From contig JAFGQN010000173.1 of assembly GCA_016935665.1 (NCBI GenBank), positions 100,630 to 164,629 on the forward strand: DNA of 64,000 bases, in the 5' to 3' direction. Positions 25,384 to 34,171 of the stretch are shown here, in pieces. The translations under genes were made by a program, and so were the position numbers. Each line of letters begins with the position of its first letter. Positions within the stretch are counted from its first letter, which is position 1. The notes beneath the pieces were generated by a model that was not told the origin of the DNA, made no database searches, and worked only from the letters and a program-made list of their open reading frames with translations. This DNA is from Deltaproteobacteria bacterium (GTDB lineage: Bacteria > Myxococcota_A > Polyangia > JAAYKL01).

Positions 25384-25503
25384 TCAACCCGGTCGTCCTC
25401 TTGGGCACAACGACTATCTGCATAAAAATTTCAACTTCTCTAAGGTTCCTTTCACGTTTGTCGTTATTCCTTACTGGTTTGTAACCAAAGGATGGCGCAT
25501 TGC

Positions 25504-26748
25504 ATGGAATCCTTCATAGCCAGACAGCCCATTTTCGATACTCATAAAAACGTCGTTGCCTATGAGTTGCTTTTTCGCGACGGAACTGTAAACGCCAACG
25601 CGGTGAAACAGCTGCCCGATGGCACCCAGGCTTCCTATCACGTGATGACCAACGCACTTACCCTGTTTGGCATGGAAAAAATGACCAGTGGTAAACGCGC
25701 ATTCATCAACACCACCGGAGATGTTCTCATTGGTCAGCTTCCAACGGCGTTCAGTCCCCAGTCCATCGTCATCGAAATTCTGGAAGACGTTCCCGCGGAA
25801 CCCGAAATTCTCGACGCATGCCGGCAGCTGAAGCAGCAGGGGTATACCATCGCCATGGATGATGTTATTCACGGTGAATCCAGAAACGACATGGTGGTGC
25901 TTTCGGATATTATTAAAATTGACTTCATGGACACAACTCCTGCCGAGCAGGCGGAGTTGGCCCGTCAATTTGATAAAATGGGCAAAACCCTTCTGGCCGA
26001 GAAAGTGGAAACTCATGACGTGTTCGAATATGCCAGAAAACTTGGATTTACGTTGTTTCAGGGATATTTTTTTGCCAGGCCAGAGGTGCTGGTTCGCAAG
26101 GAAATTCGCGCCAACAAACTGAATTCGCTACGTTTGATAACCCGGCTGCAAACAACAGAACCCGATATTGGGGCATTAGAGGATATTGTCAAAAATGATG
26201 TGGCCATGTCGTATCGGCTCCTGCGATATATCAATTCCGCCTTTTTTTCATTTCGACGGGAGATTGAGTCCATTCGTCAGGCCATCGTGCTGTTGGGCAA
26301 CCGGGAGTTTCGAAAGTGGGCCACGCTCATTGCCATGAGCGGATTGACCGACGACAAACCCGAAGAACTGCTGGTGACCGGCCTGATTCGCGCCAGATTT
26401 CTGGAGCAACTGGCTGGGGAGATTGGATTTTTGCAGGAAAAAGACAATTTGTTTTTGATGGGCGTATTCTCCATACTGGACGGGGCCACCGATCAGCCAT
26501 TCGAAATCATATTTGATGAAATCCCCGTCCACCCGGCCATCCGTGAGGCACTCCTCACCCATTCCGGTCCTTTCGCACCAGTGATGACCGCGCTTTGGGC
26601 ATTTGAAAAAGGTGACTGGAGCAGTTTCAGCCAATTTATCAATAATTACGTAGAGCTTTCGAGCAATCTCACCGAAATGTATTTCAACGCCGTTCTCTGG
26701 GCGAATCAAAGCATGGCGGCGATTCCCAAAAAAATGCCACACCGATAA
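25504..26748 (+). CDS. EAL-HDOD (YuxH-like) signalling protein
   Basis: MESFIARQPIFDTHKNVVAYELLFRDG; GYTIAMDDV; FQGYFFARPEVL; HDOD MSYRLLRYINSAFFSFRREIESIRQAIVLLGNREFRKW. Confidence 0.85.
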   Translation: MESFIARQPIFDTHKNVVAYELLFRDGTVNANAVKQLPDGTQASYHVMTNALTLFGMEKMTSGKRAFINTTGDVLIGQLPTAFSPQSIVIEILEDVPAEPEILDACRQLKQQGYTIAMDDVIHGESRNDMVVLSDIIKIDFMDTTPAEQAELARQFDKMGKTLLAEKVETHDVFEYARKLGFTLFQGYFFARPEVLVRKEIRANKLNSLRLITRLQTTEPDIGALEDIVKNDVAMSYRLLRYINSAFFSFRREIESIRQAIVLLGNREFRKWATLIAMSGLTDDKPEELLVTGLIRARFLEQLAGEIGFLQEKDNLFLMGVFSILDGATDQPFEIIFDEIPVHPAIREALLTHSGPFAPVMTALWAFEKGDWSSFSQFINNYVELSSNLTEMYFNAVLWANQSMAAIPKKMPHR

Positions 26749-26775: not shown

Positions 26776-29025
26776 TTAATCCGTTGCCGGCGGGGGAATG
26801 CTGACGAGCGCCAGTTTCCGAGCGCGTTTTTTTGCAAACAAATCTGCATCCGCTCGTTTCATAAGCATCTCCAGCGTTTCACCTTGCGACTCGGAACACA
26901 CTGCCGTTCCCAAAGAAACGGACAGCTTAAATCGTTTGCCGAGTTTCTCATTGAATTCGCGTTCAAACCTGGCAAATCGCTTGCGGATTTTCTTCTCCAG
27001 CCCTTCGACCTTTTCGCTCACCAGCACCACTACAAATTCGTCTCCGCCGATGCGAGCAATTATATCTCTGTCGCGAAACGTTTCAGTCAATACCTGTGCT
27101 GCAGCACTGATGATCAAATCGCCATCTTCGTGTCCAAAAGTGTCGTTGATGCCTTTGAGCCCATCCACATCCGCATAAAACATCATCACCTGTAATCCGA
27201 CGTTCCGGGCAGAATTCAGCATCTTGTTGCCCAAATCAACGAACCCCCGACGGTTGTACACGCCCGTGAGTTCATCCAGCATCGATTGCGCCTTGAAACG
27301 CCTGAGCAGCATTGAACTTTTGACAACACTGCTTATATGCTCGCGCAATTCCTCATACATAAACAGAGGCGCTGAATCCGTGTATTCAAGTACCACATAT
27401 CCCAAATACTCATCGCGATGATACAGCGGCATAAAAATGTGATTTTGCAACTTTTCCGTCTGCAGCAAGCCCTCCAGGAAAATGCTGCGGGTTGGAATCT
27501 GTGTACAGCCGCGGGGATACACCACCACATCCGTGTGATGATTGTAGGCCAACATCAACTCACATTTTTCGGTATACTTCCATTGTGTTCGATTGATACT
27601 GTCCTGATTAAACACTGCCAGTACCAGACTGTTCACATTTAGCTGAGGCAGTCCCCTGGCAATACTTTCCAGTAATTCCCGCTGCTCAAATGAAGAGATA
27701 ATCCGCTGGGACACAACGTTTATATTGCGCTGAAACTGTCTTTCCTGAATCAGTGTCTGCCGCTCGCTGCGCGCACGATGTTCGTGCAGCAACTCGTTAC
27801 CCTGCTGCAACAGATTCTCCGCATGCGCCTGTTGCGTCATCTTGTCGAAAAGGGACGGTATGTAGGCGGTCAATTCCCGCAACGTTAGCGTTAAAAGTGC
27901 GACGCCGTCACAGCAGAATCCCACATTAAACAAAAACATATCCACTTCGTTTAAAAAAATGTAGCGGATATTGTGTTTTTGCACATCCCAGACCAGGGCC
28001 TGAATTAAATCCAATATTGACTGACGGAACACTTTTTCCCCTGCATAGTTGGAGGATGTTGTGTTTACCAACGGTAGAATATGCACCATCAGTTGGTCTG
28101 CTATCTCTTCTTTAGACAAACCTGCAATATGACTGTGGACCGCTCTGGCATTGGCGACTTCGTCGGAAAAACAGCCGCAACTGCGGCGAAACACCGGTTC
28201 GGTGGCCAAAACGGTTTCCATTGGGACTTTTTCTCCTGCTATCTGACTCAACACATGGTTCACTGCTTCGATGCCCATCTGGTACATCGGTTGACGAACG
28301 GTGGTCAACGCCGGATCGATGTTCGCAGCTTCCTCCACATCGTCGAATCCCGCCAGCGCCACCTTTCCGGGAACGTGTCTTCCCTGCGCAATCAGCTCCT
28401 CCAGTACTCCAAGAGCGGTGTTATCATTCACGCAAATCACGGCATCAAAATGCACGCCGCGCTCAATCAATTCCCGAATGGCCGTGGCGCCGTCCCGGCC
28501 GATGAAGCTGCCGTTGAGAATCAAATCCGGCTTGAATTTCACGCCGTTAGCCGCCATTGCACGTTTATAGGCTTCAAAACGCTGTTCCGCCTCTTCATGA
28601 CCTTTGGGTCCACGGATAAACACAATATCCCGATAATCATGAACTTCGACAAAATGTGCCACCATGCGCTCCACCCCTGGTGCATTTTCCACCAGGATAC
28701 TGGGAAACCCTTCAATTTTTTCGGAAACGCAAACCAGCGGAATCCCCCTGAACGACTCACACAGCTTTTGTGTAAACTCACGCCCGTGGTGTTCCGCGAT
28801 AGACCCCGTGAACACGATTGCCCCATCGATGTCGCTGTTGGGCGCAAACTGTTCAATGATGTCATAGTGAGCATCGAAATGGTCCACGCCGTCCTGACTG
28901 GTACCGGCAAAAGACAGCAAATCCACATTGCATTCAGCCGCCTGATGACAAATGCCTCGCCAAATGCCGGATTGATATTGTTCGTGTACAGCGTCAATGA
29001 GGACGCCAATTCTGGGTCTTTTCAT
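26776..29025 (-). CDS. LacI-type periplasmic-binding-like sensor fused to GGDEF diguanylate cyclase
   Basis: MKRPRIGVLIDAVHEQYQSGIWRGI..., GKVALAGFDDVEEAANIDPALTTVRQP; C-terminal DELTGVYNRRGF, FYADVDGLKGINDTFGHEDGD, RIGGDEFVVVL. No HTH or TM seen N-terminally. Confidence 0.85.
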   Translation of the reverse strand: MKRPRIGVLIDAVHEQYQSGIWRGICHQAAECNVDLLSFAGTSQDGVDHFDAHYDIIEQFAPNSDIDGAIVFTGSIAEHHGREFTQKLCESFRGIPLVCVSEKIEGFPSILVENAPGVERMVAHFVEVHDYRDIVFIRGPKGHEEAEQRFEAYKRAMAANGVKFKPDLILNGSFIGRDGATAIRELIERGVHFDAVICVNDNTALGVLEELIAQGRHVPGKVALAGFDDVEEAANIDPALTTVRQPMYQMGIEAVNHVLSQIAGEKVPMETVLATEPVFRRSCGCFSDEVANARAVHSHIAGLSKEEIADQLMVHILPLVNTTSSNYAGEKVFRQSILDLIQALVWDVQKHNIRYIFLNEVDMFLFNVGFCCDGVALLTLTLRELTAYIPSLFDKMTQQAHAENLLQQGNELLHEHRARSERQTLIQERQFQRNINVVSQRIISSFEQRELLESIARGLPQLNVNSLVLAVFNQDSINRTQWKYTEKCELMLAYNHHTDVVVYPRGCTQIPTRSIFLEGLLQTEKLQNHIFMPLYHRDEYLGYVVLEYTDSAPLFMYEELREHISSVVKSSMLLRRFKAQSMLDELTGVYNRRGFVDLGNKMLNSARNVGLQVMMFYADVDGLKGINDTFGHEDGDLIISAAAQVLTETFRDRDIIARIGGDEFVVVLVSEKVEGLEKKIRKRFARFEREFNEKLGKRFKLSVSLGTAVCSESQGETLEMLMKRADADLFAKKRARKLALVSIPPPATD

Positions 29026-29521
29026 CTCGACAGTCAAGTGTTCAACCCCTGTTGGCTGTTTTGAATCAAGTAGTTGACTCTGTTTTTTTTACAACAACAG
29101 TTTACTCTGTTTTTTGAACGTGTCGCAACGGATTTGGGTGAAATATTTCGAATATGTTGTCATTGCTGCACATATGCTACCCAATAAAATTGGTTTATCT
29201 TTTAATCAATTCCATTATCCTTCCCCAATAAATTCTGATCCGGATATATAATCCGTCCTCACCGACATGACTTCCTTTTGCAGTATTATCCACTACAGAT
29301 AGCCTTCTAAACTTGAACTAAATATTGTAAACAACCGTAATGATTAACTAATTTTATTTTTCATTTTTTTTTGAATCTAATTTTGTGTTCTCTGAATCAA
29401 ATGCTTTCTTCACTGGACGGGGAATCAAAAGAATATTATCATCGTAGATACTTAAAAAATTTCCCTCTTAAGGACGCAAAAAAGTCACAGGTGGGGTTTT
29501 CCAGGGAAAATGGAGGCGCTC

Positions 29522-30568
29522 ATGAAGCCCAATAAGGCCGTTGGTATCGTTGGATACGGCGGATATATACCGCGATACAGGATTGACGCCGCGGAGGTTA
29601 ATCGGGTATGGAAAGACAGTGCCATGCCACTGGGACGATCGTTCAAGGCCGTTCCTGGCCCCGACGAGGATACAGCTACTATCGCCATTCAGGCGGCCCG
29701 CAATGCCATGCGGATGGCGCAAATCTCTCCGGAAAAATTGCGCGCCGTATGGTTTGGCACCGAATCCAAACCGTATGCAGTAAAACCCACATCCACCATC
29801 GTGGCGGACGCCATTGGTGCACTGCCCCACGCCAACGCTGCCGACTGGGAATTCGCCTGTAAACCGGGGACCGAAGCGATGCAGGCCGCCATTGCCATGG
29901 TGGGCAGTGGCATGGCACCTTACGCCATGTGCGGTGGAGCAGATACTGCGCAGGCACGTCCGGGCGATATTCTGGAATACAATACAGGCGCTGGTGGTGC
30001 ATCATTTATTCTGGGCGAAGCCGAAGAAAGCCTTGCAATTCTCGAGGCCTCTACATCCTATGTGACCAACACTCCGGACTTTTTTCGTCGCGAAGGGCAG
30101 CCGTACCCTTCCCACGGACAGCGCTTTACCGGAAAACCAGCGTATTTTCATCATATTCGCGCCGCGGTGGGCGAACTTCTGAATGAGACCGGCGCCACCC
30201 CTGAAAGCTTTAAATATGCTGTTTTCCATCAGCCCAATTACCAGTTTCCACTTAAGGTGGCCGCCAGTCTGGGATTTCCAAAAGAAAAAGTGGAACCGTT
30301 TATTTTAACAAGTCAGATTGGCAACACGTATTCCGGAGCGGCTCTGCTGGGACTGGCCACTGCGCTTGATGCAGCTGCCCCAGGAGACAAAATTCTACTG
30401 GCGTCTTACGGCTCCGGTGCCGGCTCGGACGCATTCAGTTTTACAGTGACGGAGCGCATTGAGGAAATTCGCAGCAGGGGCGTTTCCATCAAATCCTACC
30501 TGAACAGAACAAGGCTTATCGACTATGCGGTGTATGCACGCTATCGCGGCAAACTCAGGATGAACTGA
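29522..30568 (+). CDS. Archaeal-type hydroxymethylglutaryl-CoA synthase
   Basis: [27 protein letters not shown] (Cys); [39 protein letters not shown] (His); [23 protein letters not shown]. Confidence 0.88.
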
Positions 30569-30584: not shown

Positions 30585-31724
30585 GTGACAATGAAAATCG
30601 AAATAGCCGGCGTGGGAACAACCAAATCGGCAGAAAAATGGGAACTGGGTCTGCTCGATATCGCCATTAAAGCCGCGGGGAAAGCGCTCAAGGATGCGGG
30701 TTCCGTAACACCGGATGCGGTCATTGTCGCCAACGCCCTTGGGGGCGCTCTGGGAGACCAGCAGAATCTTGCGCTGCATGTGGCCGGTGGGCTTGGATAT
30801 AGTCATGCCGAAACTTACAGTGTCTGTTGCGATGAAGCATCCGGCGGCGCTGCTGTGCGACTGGCGTCAGCACTGATTCGCTCTGGCATGCACGATACGG
30901 TTTTGGTAGTGGGCGCGGAAAAAACCAGCGATGCATTGCCAGATATGCTGGAAACGGTGCGGTCTGCAGGTTTGGATGCCGCCAGGGAAGCGTCTTTTGG
31001 ATTCAGCCCCACCATCGCCGGAGCCCTGGGCATGCAACACTATTTGAGCACGTACCACCTGGACAAAGAGGCGTTCTATCACATCGCTCGCATTGCCCAT
31101 CAGCATGGAAGTACCAATCGCAACGCTATTTTCCCGTGGGCTCTGGACCGGAAACAGTACCTGAAATCGCCCATTGTGGCGACGCCACTGTCCGTATGCG
31201 ATAATGCCCCTCCCTGTGATGGCGCAGCCGCCGCCATTTTAAAAAAGGGTTCCGTTCAAACCAGCAACGTTTGTATTCTGGGTAGTGCCAACACATCCGA
31301 CAGGAAGGGAATTGTGTTTCCTATTACCTCGCTTCAGCTGCCCGCAGCGACACAGAGTGCCACCATGGCGTTAAAGGAAGCAGGGAGTCAGCTGTCAGAT
31401 ATGTCACTAATGGAATTGCACGACGCCAATACGTTCCTTGCGGCGCTATCTATCGAGGCTGTGGGTTTGGCTCAGCCCGGAAAAGCGCTGGAGCGGGCAC
31501 AAACCGATGATTTCCTGCTCACCGGCACCATGCCTTTGTGGACGTTTGGCGGCCATAAATCCAGAGGGCTCGCCCCTGGCGCCAGTGGAATGTATCAACT
31601 GGTGGAAGCCGTGCTCGAATTGCGCGGCGACGCGGGAGAAAATCAGATAACCAATGCCAATAAAGCGCTGGTGCAGTGTCTGGGCAGTTTCGGCGCCCAG
31701 GCGGTGACCCATGTATTAGGATGA
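30585..31724 (+). CDS. Archaeal-type thiolase-fold protein with non-canonical active-site motifs
   Basis: MKIEIAGVGTTKS...; LMELHDAN (HDCF-like), FGGHKSRGLAPGASG (GGLKxxGHPxGATG-like), SVCCDEASGGAAV (VEAACASGG-like). Confidence 0.8.
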   Translation: MTMKIEIAGVGTTKSAEKWELGLLDIAIKAAGKALKDAGSVTPDAVIVANALGGALGDQQNLALHVAGGLGYSHAETYSVCCDEASGGAAVRLASALIRSGMHDTVLVVGAEKTSDALPDMLETVRSAGLDAAREASFGFSPTIAGALGMQHYLSTYHLDKEAFYHIARIAHQHGSTNRNAIFPWALDRKQYLKSPIVATPLSVCDNAPPCDGAAAAILKKGSVQTSNVCILGSANTSDRKGIVFPITSLQLPAATQSATMALKEAGSQLSDMSLMELHDANTFLAALSIEAVGLAQPGKALERAQTDDFLLTGTMPLWTFGGHKSRGLAPGASGMYQLVEAVLELRGDAGENQITNANKALVQCLGSFGAQAVTHVLG

Positions 31725-31728
31725 CACA

Positions 31729-32130
31729 ATGCAAATAGCAAAATCCTGGCGAAGACAGCCCTCCAACCTGCGTCTCGAAGGCACCCGATGCACCGGGTGT
31801 GGACAACTGGAATTTCCGACGGTCATTCGCTGCGCCCAATGCGGTGAAATTGAATTCGAAACGTATCAGTTTGCGGGCAAAGGGAAAGTCATTGTGGCCT
31901 CCACTGTTTACGAAGCCACTCGGGACTTCGGTGAACACGTGCCCTATTGTGCGGCAATTATTGAACTGGAAGAAGGCATTCATCTGGCGACAATGATCAC
32001 TGATGTGGATCCCGCCGATGTTACTGTGGGAATGGAGGTCGAGATGGTGACCCGCCGCATTGCCGCCCAGGGAGACAACGGGCCTATTTTGTACGCTTAC
32101 AAATTTGCGCCGCAACTGCAGATTTTATGA
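31729..32130 (+). CDS. DUF35 Zn-ribbon/OB-fold protein
   Basis: RCTGCGQLEFPTVIRCAQCGE four-Cys rubredoxin-like motif; OB-fold C-terminus; directly after thiolase. Confidence 0.85.
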   Translation: MQIAKSWRRQPSNLRLEGTRCTGCGQLEFPTVIRCAQCGEIEFETYQFAGKGKVIVASTVYEATRDFGEHVPYCAAIIELEEGIHLATMITDVDPADVTVGMEVEMVTRRIAAQGDNGPILYAYKFAPQLQIL

Positions 32131-33167
32131 GCGGGATTTATAACAGAAAACGCAGCCACATTGTAATCTGTACAGAGAAAGATGTGGCGTTTCGCCAATC
32201 CACTCTCCTGGAAGAAGTGGAACTGCTGCATTGTGCCCTCCCTGAACTGGATTTGACAGATGTGTCGCTGGCGACGCATATCGCCGGTCATACAATTACC
32301 CATCCGTTTATTATTGGCGCCATGACCGGAGGCACAGGCGATGGCAACGCGTTTAACCTGGCACTGGCCAGAACCGCAGCACAGTTTGAGACCGCGTTTT
32401 GCCTGGGCAGTATCCGTCCGGCCCTGGTGGACCCCACCTGCATCCCGGAGTTCGATGTGAAAAAAGAGGTGCCCAATGTGCTGGTGTTCGCCAACATTGG
32501 CGCCAACCAGCTCTCCACTTTTGGCGCCCCACAGATTCTCGACCTGGCCCGGCGTTTGGCGGATGGTCTGATGGTGCATCTGAATGCTGGAATGGAGCTG
32601 ATACAGCCGAGCGGCGACACCTGTTTTTCCGGTCAGGTGGACGCCATAGCCAGGCTGGTGGAAGTGGCCGGGGATTTTCCCATTGTTGTAAAAGAAACCG
32701 GCATGGGATTGTCACTGAAGGACGGCGTGAGCCTCAAACAGGTGGGAATAAAAACTGTTGAAACGGCGGGGGCGGGGGGCACCAGCTGGATTGGGGTGGA
32801 AACTGAACGAGCGTCTGGGACAGACAAAGCAGTGGGCGAACTGCTGCGCGATTTCGGCATTCCCACTGCCGCCAGCATTTCGTGGATGCACCAGCTGGGA
32901 TTGGAAACCATCGGATCCGGGGGAGTGTACACCGCCATGGATGCAGCTAGAGCAATTCGTCTGGGGTCCTGTGCCGTGGCCATGGCGCGCCCCTGGTTAC
33001 TGGCATATCAGGCAGATGGCATTGCAGGTCTTTGGGCGCTCATGGAAGAACTCATCCTGGGATTGAAATATCTGATGGTCTGTGTGGGTGTGAAAGATAT
33101 TTCTTCTCTACAGAAGGCGGATTGCATTATTGGGCAACGTCTGCAACAATATCTTAATTTCAAATAG
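32127..33167 (+). CDS. fni: Type 2 isopentenyl-diphosphate delta-isomerase-like protein
   Basis: RKRSHIVICTEKDVAFRQSTLLEEVELLHCALPEL; PFIIGAMTGGT; FANIGANQ; VVKETGMGLS; GGTSWIGVE; ATG overlaps upstream stop. Confidence 0.85.
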   Translation: MSGIYNRKRSHIVICTEKDVAFRQSTLLEEVELLHCALPELDLTDVSLATHIAGHTITHPFIIGAMTGGTGDGNAFNLALARTAAQFETAFCLGSIRPALVDPTCIPEFDVKKEVPNVLVFANIGANQLSTFGAPQILDLARRLADGLMVHLNAGMELIQPSGDTCFSGQVDAIARLVEVAGDFPIVVKETGMGLSLKDGVSLKQVGIKTVETAGAGGTSWIGVETERASGTDKAVGELLRDFGIPTAASISWMHQLGLETIGSGGVYTAMDAARAIRLGSCAVAMARPWLLAYQADGIAGLWALMEELILGLKYLMVCVGVKDISSLQKADCIIGQRLQQYLNFK

Positions 33168-33175
33168 GCATTTTT

Positions 33176-34171
33176 ATGGAAAAAACAGTTGAAGCGCGCG
33201 CCCACGCCAATGTGGCGCTGGTGAAATATTTTGGCAAGCGGGATTTGGCCCTCAACCTGCCGGCGGCCCCCAGTGTATCCATCACTCTTTCGCCGTTGAA
33301 CACCGTTACCCGAATGTCGTTTACCGACAACGACTCCGATGAGATCTGGCTGGGGGACACCCTGGCGGACAGTAAATTTTCAACGCGTATCTCCAATTAT
33401 CTGTACATTTTCAGAGAGTTGTCCGGAGAGCACCGAGGCGTCCGCATTTCAACCCAAAACAATTTTCCCACCGCTGCAGGCCTGGCTTCTTCTGCTTCGG
33501 GATTTGCAGCGCTGGCGAAAGGTGCGGCCCGGCTGTTTGGACTCAATCTGTCAGAAGCCGAGATGTCCGCGCTGGCACGGCGGGGTTCCGGATCCGCTGC
33601 CCGGTCCATATGCGACGGCTTTGTGGTCTGGCACAGAGGTGAAAAAGCGGATGGCTCCGATTCCTTTGCACAGTCCATTGCCCCCGCCAATCACTGGGAT
33701 GTGCGCGTTCTCGTCGGAGTGACAACCACCGGTCCCAAAGACATTGGTTCCACCTTTGCCATGGAGCGCACGCGGCTGTTATCCCCTTACTACCAGCCCT
33801 GGATTCAGACCACCCATGTGAATGCGGCCGAGGCGGTTGACGCCATTGAGCAAAAGGACATCGAAAAGCTGGGGGAAATCACCGAGTACAGCGCACTGGC
33901 CATGCATGGCGCGATGATGGCAACCGAACCGCCTATCGTTTTTTTAAAGGGCACCACCCTCGACGTGTTTCATCTGACACGCCAGCTGCGAAAGGAAGGT
34001 ATTGGCGCCTATTTTACCTGTGACGCCGGTCCCCAGCCCAAGGTGTTGTGCGAAGCGAAAGATGTAATGACAGTGGAACAGCGGTTGCGCGAATTTCCCG
34101 GTATTCTCGACGTCATCCACTGTTCGGTGGCAACCGGGGCGACTGCGCATTTTATTGACCATGAATCATGA
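33176..34171 (+). CDS. mvaD: Diphosphomevalonate decarboxylase
   Basis: ARAHANVALVKYFGKRD; NNFPTAAGLASSASGFAALA; RRGSGSAARSICDGFVVW; TCDAGPQPKVL. Confidence 0.88.
   Translation: MEKTVEARAHANVALVKYFGKRDLALNLPAAPSVSITLSPLNTVTRMSFTDNDSDEIWLGDTLADSKFSTRISNYLYIFRELSGEHRGVRISTQNNFPTAAGLASSASGFAALAKGAARLFGLNLSEAEMSALARRGSGSAARSICDGFVVWHRGEKADGSDSFAQSIAPANHWDVRVLVGVTTTGPKDIGSTFAMERTRLLSPYYQPWIQTTHVNAAEAVDAIEQKDIEKLGEITEYSALAMHGAMMATEPPIVFLKGTTLDVFHLTRQLRKEGIGAYFTCDAGPQPKVLCEAKDVMTVEQRLREFPGILDVIHCSVATGATAHFIDHES

Follow-up and report, generated by a model that had tools for sequence, protein, structure and literature searches.

The operon and its gene products

The window, by which the whole stretch of 64,000 nucleotides analysed here is meant, comes from the genome of a Deltaproteobacteria bacterium of the Myxococcota (8.16 Mb, 249 contigs). 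It carries a tightly packed series of genes, all on the + strand. The first (29510..30568) encodes an archaeal-type HMG-CoA synthase (HMGCS), which scores 502.6 bits against NF003274 and 483.7 bits against TIGR00748, both above the cut-off, and has chain I of 6esq as its top PDB match (E = 5.9e-118). It is followed by the gene of a thiolase-like subunit of 379 amino acids (30585..31724), which matches PF22691 (105.7 bits) and PF00108 (29.8 bits) above both cut-offs. The third gene (31729..32130) encodes a DUF35/OB-fold zinc-ribbon protein (PF01796 and PF12172) whose top PDB match is chain E of 6esq (E = 8e-26), and which we take to be the counterpart of the bridge subunit of the archaeal complex. 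The genes for all three subunits of a 6ESQ-type complex are thus adjacent. Further downstream lie a type 2 isopentenyl-diphosphate isomerase (IDI2; 32127..33167; TIGR02151, 298.3 bits against a cut-off of 281.3) and a diphosphomevalonate decarboxylase (MVD; 33176..34171; TIGR01240, 269 bits, above the cut-off). The gaps between these genes amount to 16, 4, -4 and 8 bases, the negative value marking the overlap of the IDI2 start with the DUF35 stop. The reading frame of the thiolase-like protein is intact; it starts with GTG, and an in-frame ATG is found at 30591.

Upstream, on the - strand, a LacI-type sugar-binding domain is fused to a GGDEF diguanylate cyclase domain (26776-29037), and this gene is adjoined by one for an EAL-HDOD protein (25492-26748).

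Active site of the thiolase-like protein

The protein belongs to the archaeal/SCP2-type thiolases, as its full-length PDB matches in phmmer were 7yvy, 4yzo and 6esq, and hhalign aligned it with Cys-bearing relatives at a probability of 100 across 378 columns. Its scores against the narrower models stay below their cut-offs: 237.6 bits for NF004720 (cut-off 420) and 157 bits for the NCBIfam equivalog AcCoTHIOL_METTL (NF053570, cut-off 600).

It had been proposed in an earlier note, made by eye, that Glu replaces the nucleophilic Cys. This was borne out by phmmer against 7yvy and 6esq, by MAFFT and by profile-profile hhalign, all of which place Glu84 (codon GAA, 30834..30836, + strand) on the column of the nucleophilic Cys, so that ACASG becomes DEASG. 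The start of helix N-alpha-3, the place of the nucleophile, is therefore occupied by Glu84. The hhalign alignment runs without a gap from residue 43 to residue 225, which means that shifting either Cys of the neighbouring CC pair to the column of the nucleophile would break the ASGG match. The same three methods place Leu329 (codon CTC, 31569..31571, + strand) on the column of the GHP His. His279-Asp280 of the HDxF loop are kept, with Asn or Ser standing for the Phe. An AlphaFold2 model, for which the alignment held one relative, has a mean pLDDT of only 36.9; it shows a strand at 76-81 and a helix at 87-99, with confidence below 50 at 83-85.

Survey of the family

The survey covered the 14 genomes of the GTDB family to which the window belongs; the order contains the same 14. 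The thiolase-like gene is present in 11 of them, spread over seven genera, with a full-length open frame in every case, and HMGCS and DUF35 genes directly adjoin it in all 11. The 11 sequences form one clade with a support of 100/100 against seven outgroup sequences. Because the same replacement of the Cys recurs in 11 separate genomes, a sequencing, assembly or frameshift error can be ruled out. A peptide-pattern scan of genome contigs retrieved one further member only, L014, a close relative of the window genome that the taxonomy places in the Myxococcota. At L016:8369-11981 and L049:8231-11854 no IDI2 gene lies between DUF35 and MVD, and the HMGCS-thiolase-DUF35 trio is intact.

Within the clade, residue 84 is Glu in 10 members and Asp in one, and residue 83 is Asp in 10 and Gly in one. 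The retention of the HDxx motif that had been noted for the window holds throughout, with His279-Asp280 found in 11/11. Residue 329 behaves differently. It reads L in the window, H in L014, L in L046, N in L015, L044 and L045, H in L016, I in L047, H in L048 and L049, and N in L050. Seven of the 11 thus have Leu, Ile or Asn where the GHP His would stand, and the residue differs (H/L/N/I) even among relatives with 75% identity. The survey of homologues in the same operon context suggested in the earlier note therefore gave a divided answer: an acid at position 84 is common to the clade, whereas the Leu at the His position, correct for the window, is not a clade trait, since four members have His. 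The deeper members L016, L048 and L049 retain His329, and the simplest order suggested by the sequences is that the Cys was lost first and the His eroded repeatedly afterwards. Residue 365 is Cys in nine members and Ser in two. This position had been read as a CxG-like motif that remains from the archaeal thiolases; near relatives have Asn here (QNIGGT), so the Cys or Ser is a gain of the clade rather than a remnant.

The neighbouring HMGCS was said to keep its catalytic Cys and His, and this proved correct for the whole clade, as Glu85, Cys117, His240 and Asn272 are intact in 11/11. The archaeal-type HMGCS and the thiolase-like gene occur in the same 11 genomes and are missing from the same three, a concordance of 14/14. 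In a phylum sample of 379 genomes, HMGCS scores above the archaeal-type cut-off were confined to family members. G290, one of the three family genomes without the archaeal-type operon, has an HMGCS of the bacterial/eukaryotic type, 510 residues long (L134:886-2418), and a swap of HMGCS types appears to have taken place inside this one family.

Relatives outside the family

None of about 20 relatives, drawn from the phylum, plasmids and the PDB, has an acid at the nucleophile site, and a literature search found no description of one there. The site is mostly Cys in these relatives, with Ser in 4yzo and in a Natrinema protein, and Gly in a Rhizobium protein that has YDCY. A scan of viral contigs yielded no relative with a clade query and one distant relative with an outgroup query, and the plasmid collection yielded only outgroup thiolases and a PhlABC-like cluster from Priestia.

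Three of these plasmid or outgroup loci deserve separate mention. The thiolase-like protein of a Natrinema plasmid (L126:2453-3631) has Ser at the nucleophile (NTSASG), keeps GHP and resembles ST0096 (4yzo); perhaps it represents a second, separate group of archaeal proteins that lack the Cys. The Rhizobium 'thiolase' (L131:1474-2631), which adjoins OB-fold and MaoC genes, combines Gly at the nucleophile with YDCY and with GQP for GHP. The aldolase Sal is reported to show this pattern, and the Rhizobium protein is possibly an aldolase misannotated as a thiolase. The Priestia megaterium plasmid CP109765.1 has an HMGCS-like/thiolase/zinc-ribbon trio beside NRPS genes (L132:3992-6770). Its HMGCS-like subunit resembles PhlA, with the catalytic Cys changed to Gly and the Glu to Ser, so that the trio appears to encode an acylase of the PhlABC type within a cluster for a natural product.

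Selection on the gene and on single sites

Values of dN/dS were obtained from unsaturated genus pairs (L015, L044, L045). They are 0.10-0.18 for the thiolase-like gene, 0.06 for HMGCS and 0.18-0.27 for DUF35, IDI2 and MVD. The values for the thiolase-like gene lie well under 1 and at or below those of the IDI2 and MVD of the operon, which indicates that the protein is maintained by purifying selection. It evolves faster than HMGCS, and this fits relaxation, though a new function as well.

On the clade tree, a single change (E to D) falls on site 84 and four or more fall on site 329. Across the protein, no more than one change is seen at 41% of the sites, and four or more at 30%. The acid at position 84 is thus not exceptionally constrained, and for this reason no catalytic role is claimed for it. 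Positions 81 and 82, which hold the CC pair in the window, vary freely: C/S/A/E/N and C/S/D/T/A are found there, with five parsimony steps each. A nucleophile shifted to this pair, one of the interpretations first offered for the protein, is thereby ruled out.

Metabolic context

DXR was found in none of the 14 family genomes, in a search whose control detected it in nine of 14 reference genomes, and HMGR was found in 13 of the 14. This suggests that IPP, and hence isoprenoids, most likely come from the mevalonate pathway alone in this family. Canonical thiolases (TIGR01930, above the cut-off) are present in 14/14. The window genome has two, both with the nucleophilic Cys, NEAF and GHP. One (C72:46246-47406) carries the motifs NRVCGSG, NEAF, GHPIG and CIGGG. 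The other (C37:75727-76875) carries NMACPSG, NEAF, GHPTG and a C-terminal ICGAGG, and adjoins a gene resembling acetoacetyl-CoA/3-oxoacyl reductases.

Interpretation

In the thiolase mechanism, the acetyl-enzyme required for the Claisen step cannot be made without the nucleophilic Cys. Judged from the sequences, the thiolase-like protein is probably a catalytically retired thiolase that survives as one subunit of a thiolase/HMGCS/DUF35 complex of the archaeal type. All three subunits match chains of the solved complex 6esq. The acid at position 84 is found throughout a fully supported clade, and the GHP His is lost in most members while the HMGCS residues are kept in all. Purifying selection is combined with strict co-occurrence with HMGCS and DUF35, canonical thiolases are present and DXR is absent in every family genome, and PhlABC offers a mirror-image precedent. 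Of the three interpretations in the earlier note, the structural subunit is accordingly the best supported, the shifted CC pair falls away, and decarboxylase-like or other chemistry is weakened.

If the retired-thiolase reading is right, the Glu84 protein would be unable to form the acetyl-enzyme through which two molecules of acetyl-CoA are condensed. The intact HMGCS would consume acetoacetyl-CoA supplied by the canonical thiolases encoded elsewhere. The fold of the thiolase would be retained as an assembly platform for HMGCS and DUF35, and also as part of a shared CoA-binding site, as in the archaeal complex. The carboxylate on the floor of the pocket may block CoA-dependent cleavage of acetoacetyl-CoA by the subunit, and the loss of the Cys may have been beneficial in that the complex no longer thiolyses the acetoacetyl-CoA made by a soluble thiolase. 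Complex formation, the absence of thiolase activity, the source of acetoacetyl-CoA and the role of the acid are what we infer here from the genes and their distribution. Some observations count against a plain scaffold, which need not conserve the acid at 84, Asp83 (10/11) and the invariant His279, nor a newly gained Cys/Ser365.

The same residues are the starting point of a different explanation, possible though unlikely, in which the pocket has been repurposed and Glu84, together with Asp83, His279 and Cys365, catalyses another acyl-CoA reaction. Malonyl-CoA decarboxylation, aldol or retro-aldol cleavage and hydrolysis are the candidates, by analogy with Cys-independent aldolases of the thiolase fold. 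The type of residue at position 84 is conserved clade-wide, His279-Asp280 do not vary, and Cys/Ser365 is new to the clade. There is also a precedent in the DUF35-bound aldolase Sal, where the nucleophile position is taken by Gly and catalysis relies on Tyr302 and Cys304 of YDCY (PMC12329534). Since Sal is a DUF35-bound thiolase fold that lost its Cys and gained another reaction, repurposing stays a real rival. However, the YDxF/YDCY motif of Sal and Ltp2 is absent, the window having HDAN and the clade HD[ASV][NS], and an aldolase of the Sal/Ltp2 type was rejected on these grounds. A GHP position that varies between H, L, N and I at 75% identity is hard to fit to a single reaction that depends on an enolate-stabilising His. 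Repurposing is weakened both by the variability of this His and by the lack of a YD motif, and the partner genes all belong to the mevalonate pathway.

A role in allostery or CoA handling is decidedly doubtful. On this reading the subunit would still bind the acyl group or the arm of CoA and would act as a gate through which acetoacetyl-CoA or acetyl-CoA reaches HMGCS; Glu84 would imitate a Cys in its acylated form and so lock one state in place. The conserved acidic residue would suit such a role, as would the fact that the subunit is never found apart from HMGCS, and the archaeal complex has a shared thiolase/HMGCS CoA site according to PMC12329534 and PMC6392133.

It is quite improbable that the acid gives the thiolase pocket a new catalytic role within the HMGCS complex, for example in base-driven decarboxylation of malonyl-CoA or in CoA transfer through a glutamyl-CoA thioester. 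If this were true, acetoacetyl-CoA or acetyl-CoA would be made in place by chemistry unknown for thiolases. Malonyl decarboxylases of the KSQ type have Gln for the Cys and keep their active-site His residues. The present clade has Glu or Asp at the site, and decarboxylase-like chemistry is weakened because the enolate-stabilising GHP His has been replaced in 7/11, for which the tree requires four changes or more.

It is very improbable that the protein still works as a thiolase whose nucleophile is Cys365, Cys82 or some other Cys. Cys365 does sit at the CxG position, where classical thiolases have their second catalytic Cys, but two members have Ser instead, neither Cys81 nor Cys82 is conserved, and no thiolase is known to have its nucleophile at any of these positions. 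A useless, decaying gene is hardly credible and was ruled out, since the lost catalytic residues and the faster change relative to HMGCS stand against full-length frames in all 11 genomes, a dN/dS well below 1 and strict co-occurrence with HMGCS.

Comparison with known systems

The explanation given for the archaeal thiolase/HMGCS complex is channelling, in which HMGCS pulls the unfavourable thiolase step via a shared CoA site. The complex of Methanothermococcus thermolithotrophicus (PDB 6ESQ, 6ET9) has the same three subunits, encoded by adjacent genes and serving the mevalonate pathway. The present system differs from it in its bacterial host and in its thiolase residues: Cys85 has become Glu or Asp, the His of GHx is variable, HDCF has become HD[ASV][NS], and the Asn at the position of residue 365 is Cys or Ser. 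The sharing of the CoA site by thiolase and HMGCS in the archaeal complex is as described in PMC12329534 and PMC6392133.

ST0096 of Sulfolobus tokodaii (PDB 4YZO), a thiolase-like protein and the second best PDB match, also lacks the nucleophilic Cys; its site, with Ser, is not acidic, and it keeps GHP. Sal and Ltp2 (the latter PDB 6OK1) share the thiolase fold, the DUF35 partner and the lack of a nucleophilic Cys at the site (Gly in Sal). However, they have YDCY or YDHF, act on steroid substrates and have no HMGCS partner, whereas in the present protein HD is kept and YD is absent.

The Friedel-Crafts acylase PhlABC (PDB 5M3K) has the same three-part architecture, in which one condensing subunit is without its catalytic residues. 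In its HMGCS-like subunit PhlA, Gly stands in for the Cys of HMGCS and Cys for the Glu; this subunit is structural, and the thiolase subunit PhlC is the only one that catalyses (PMC6392133). The present system would be its mirror image: there PhlA is dead and PhlC keeps Cys88 and His347, while here HMGCS is intact and the Cys of the thiolase is lost. A natural lineage is thus at hand in which the thiolase site has no nucleophile, the genes of the complex are still together and the mevalonate route is apparently the sole source of isoprenoids. In this lineage, what the thiolase subunit contributes to the architecture can be told apart from its catalysis, so that the need for channelling becomes directly testable. 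Taken together with PhlABC, it suggests that either condensing subunit of the three-part architecture can lose its active site.
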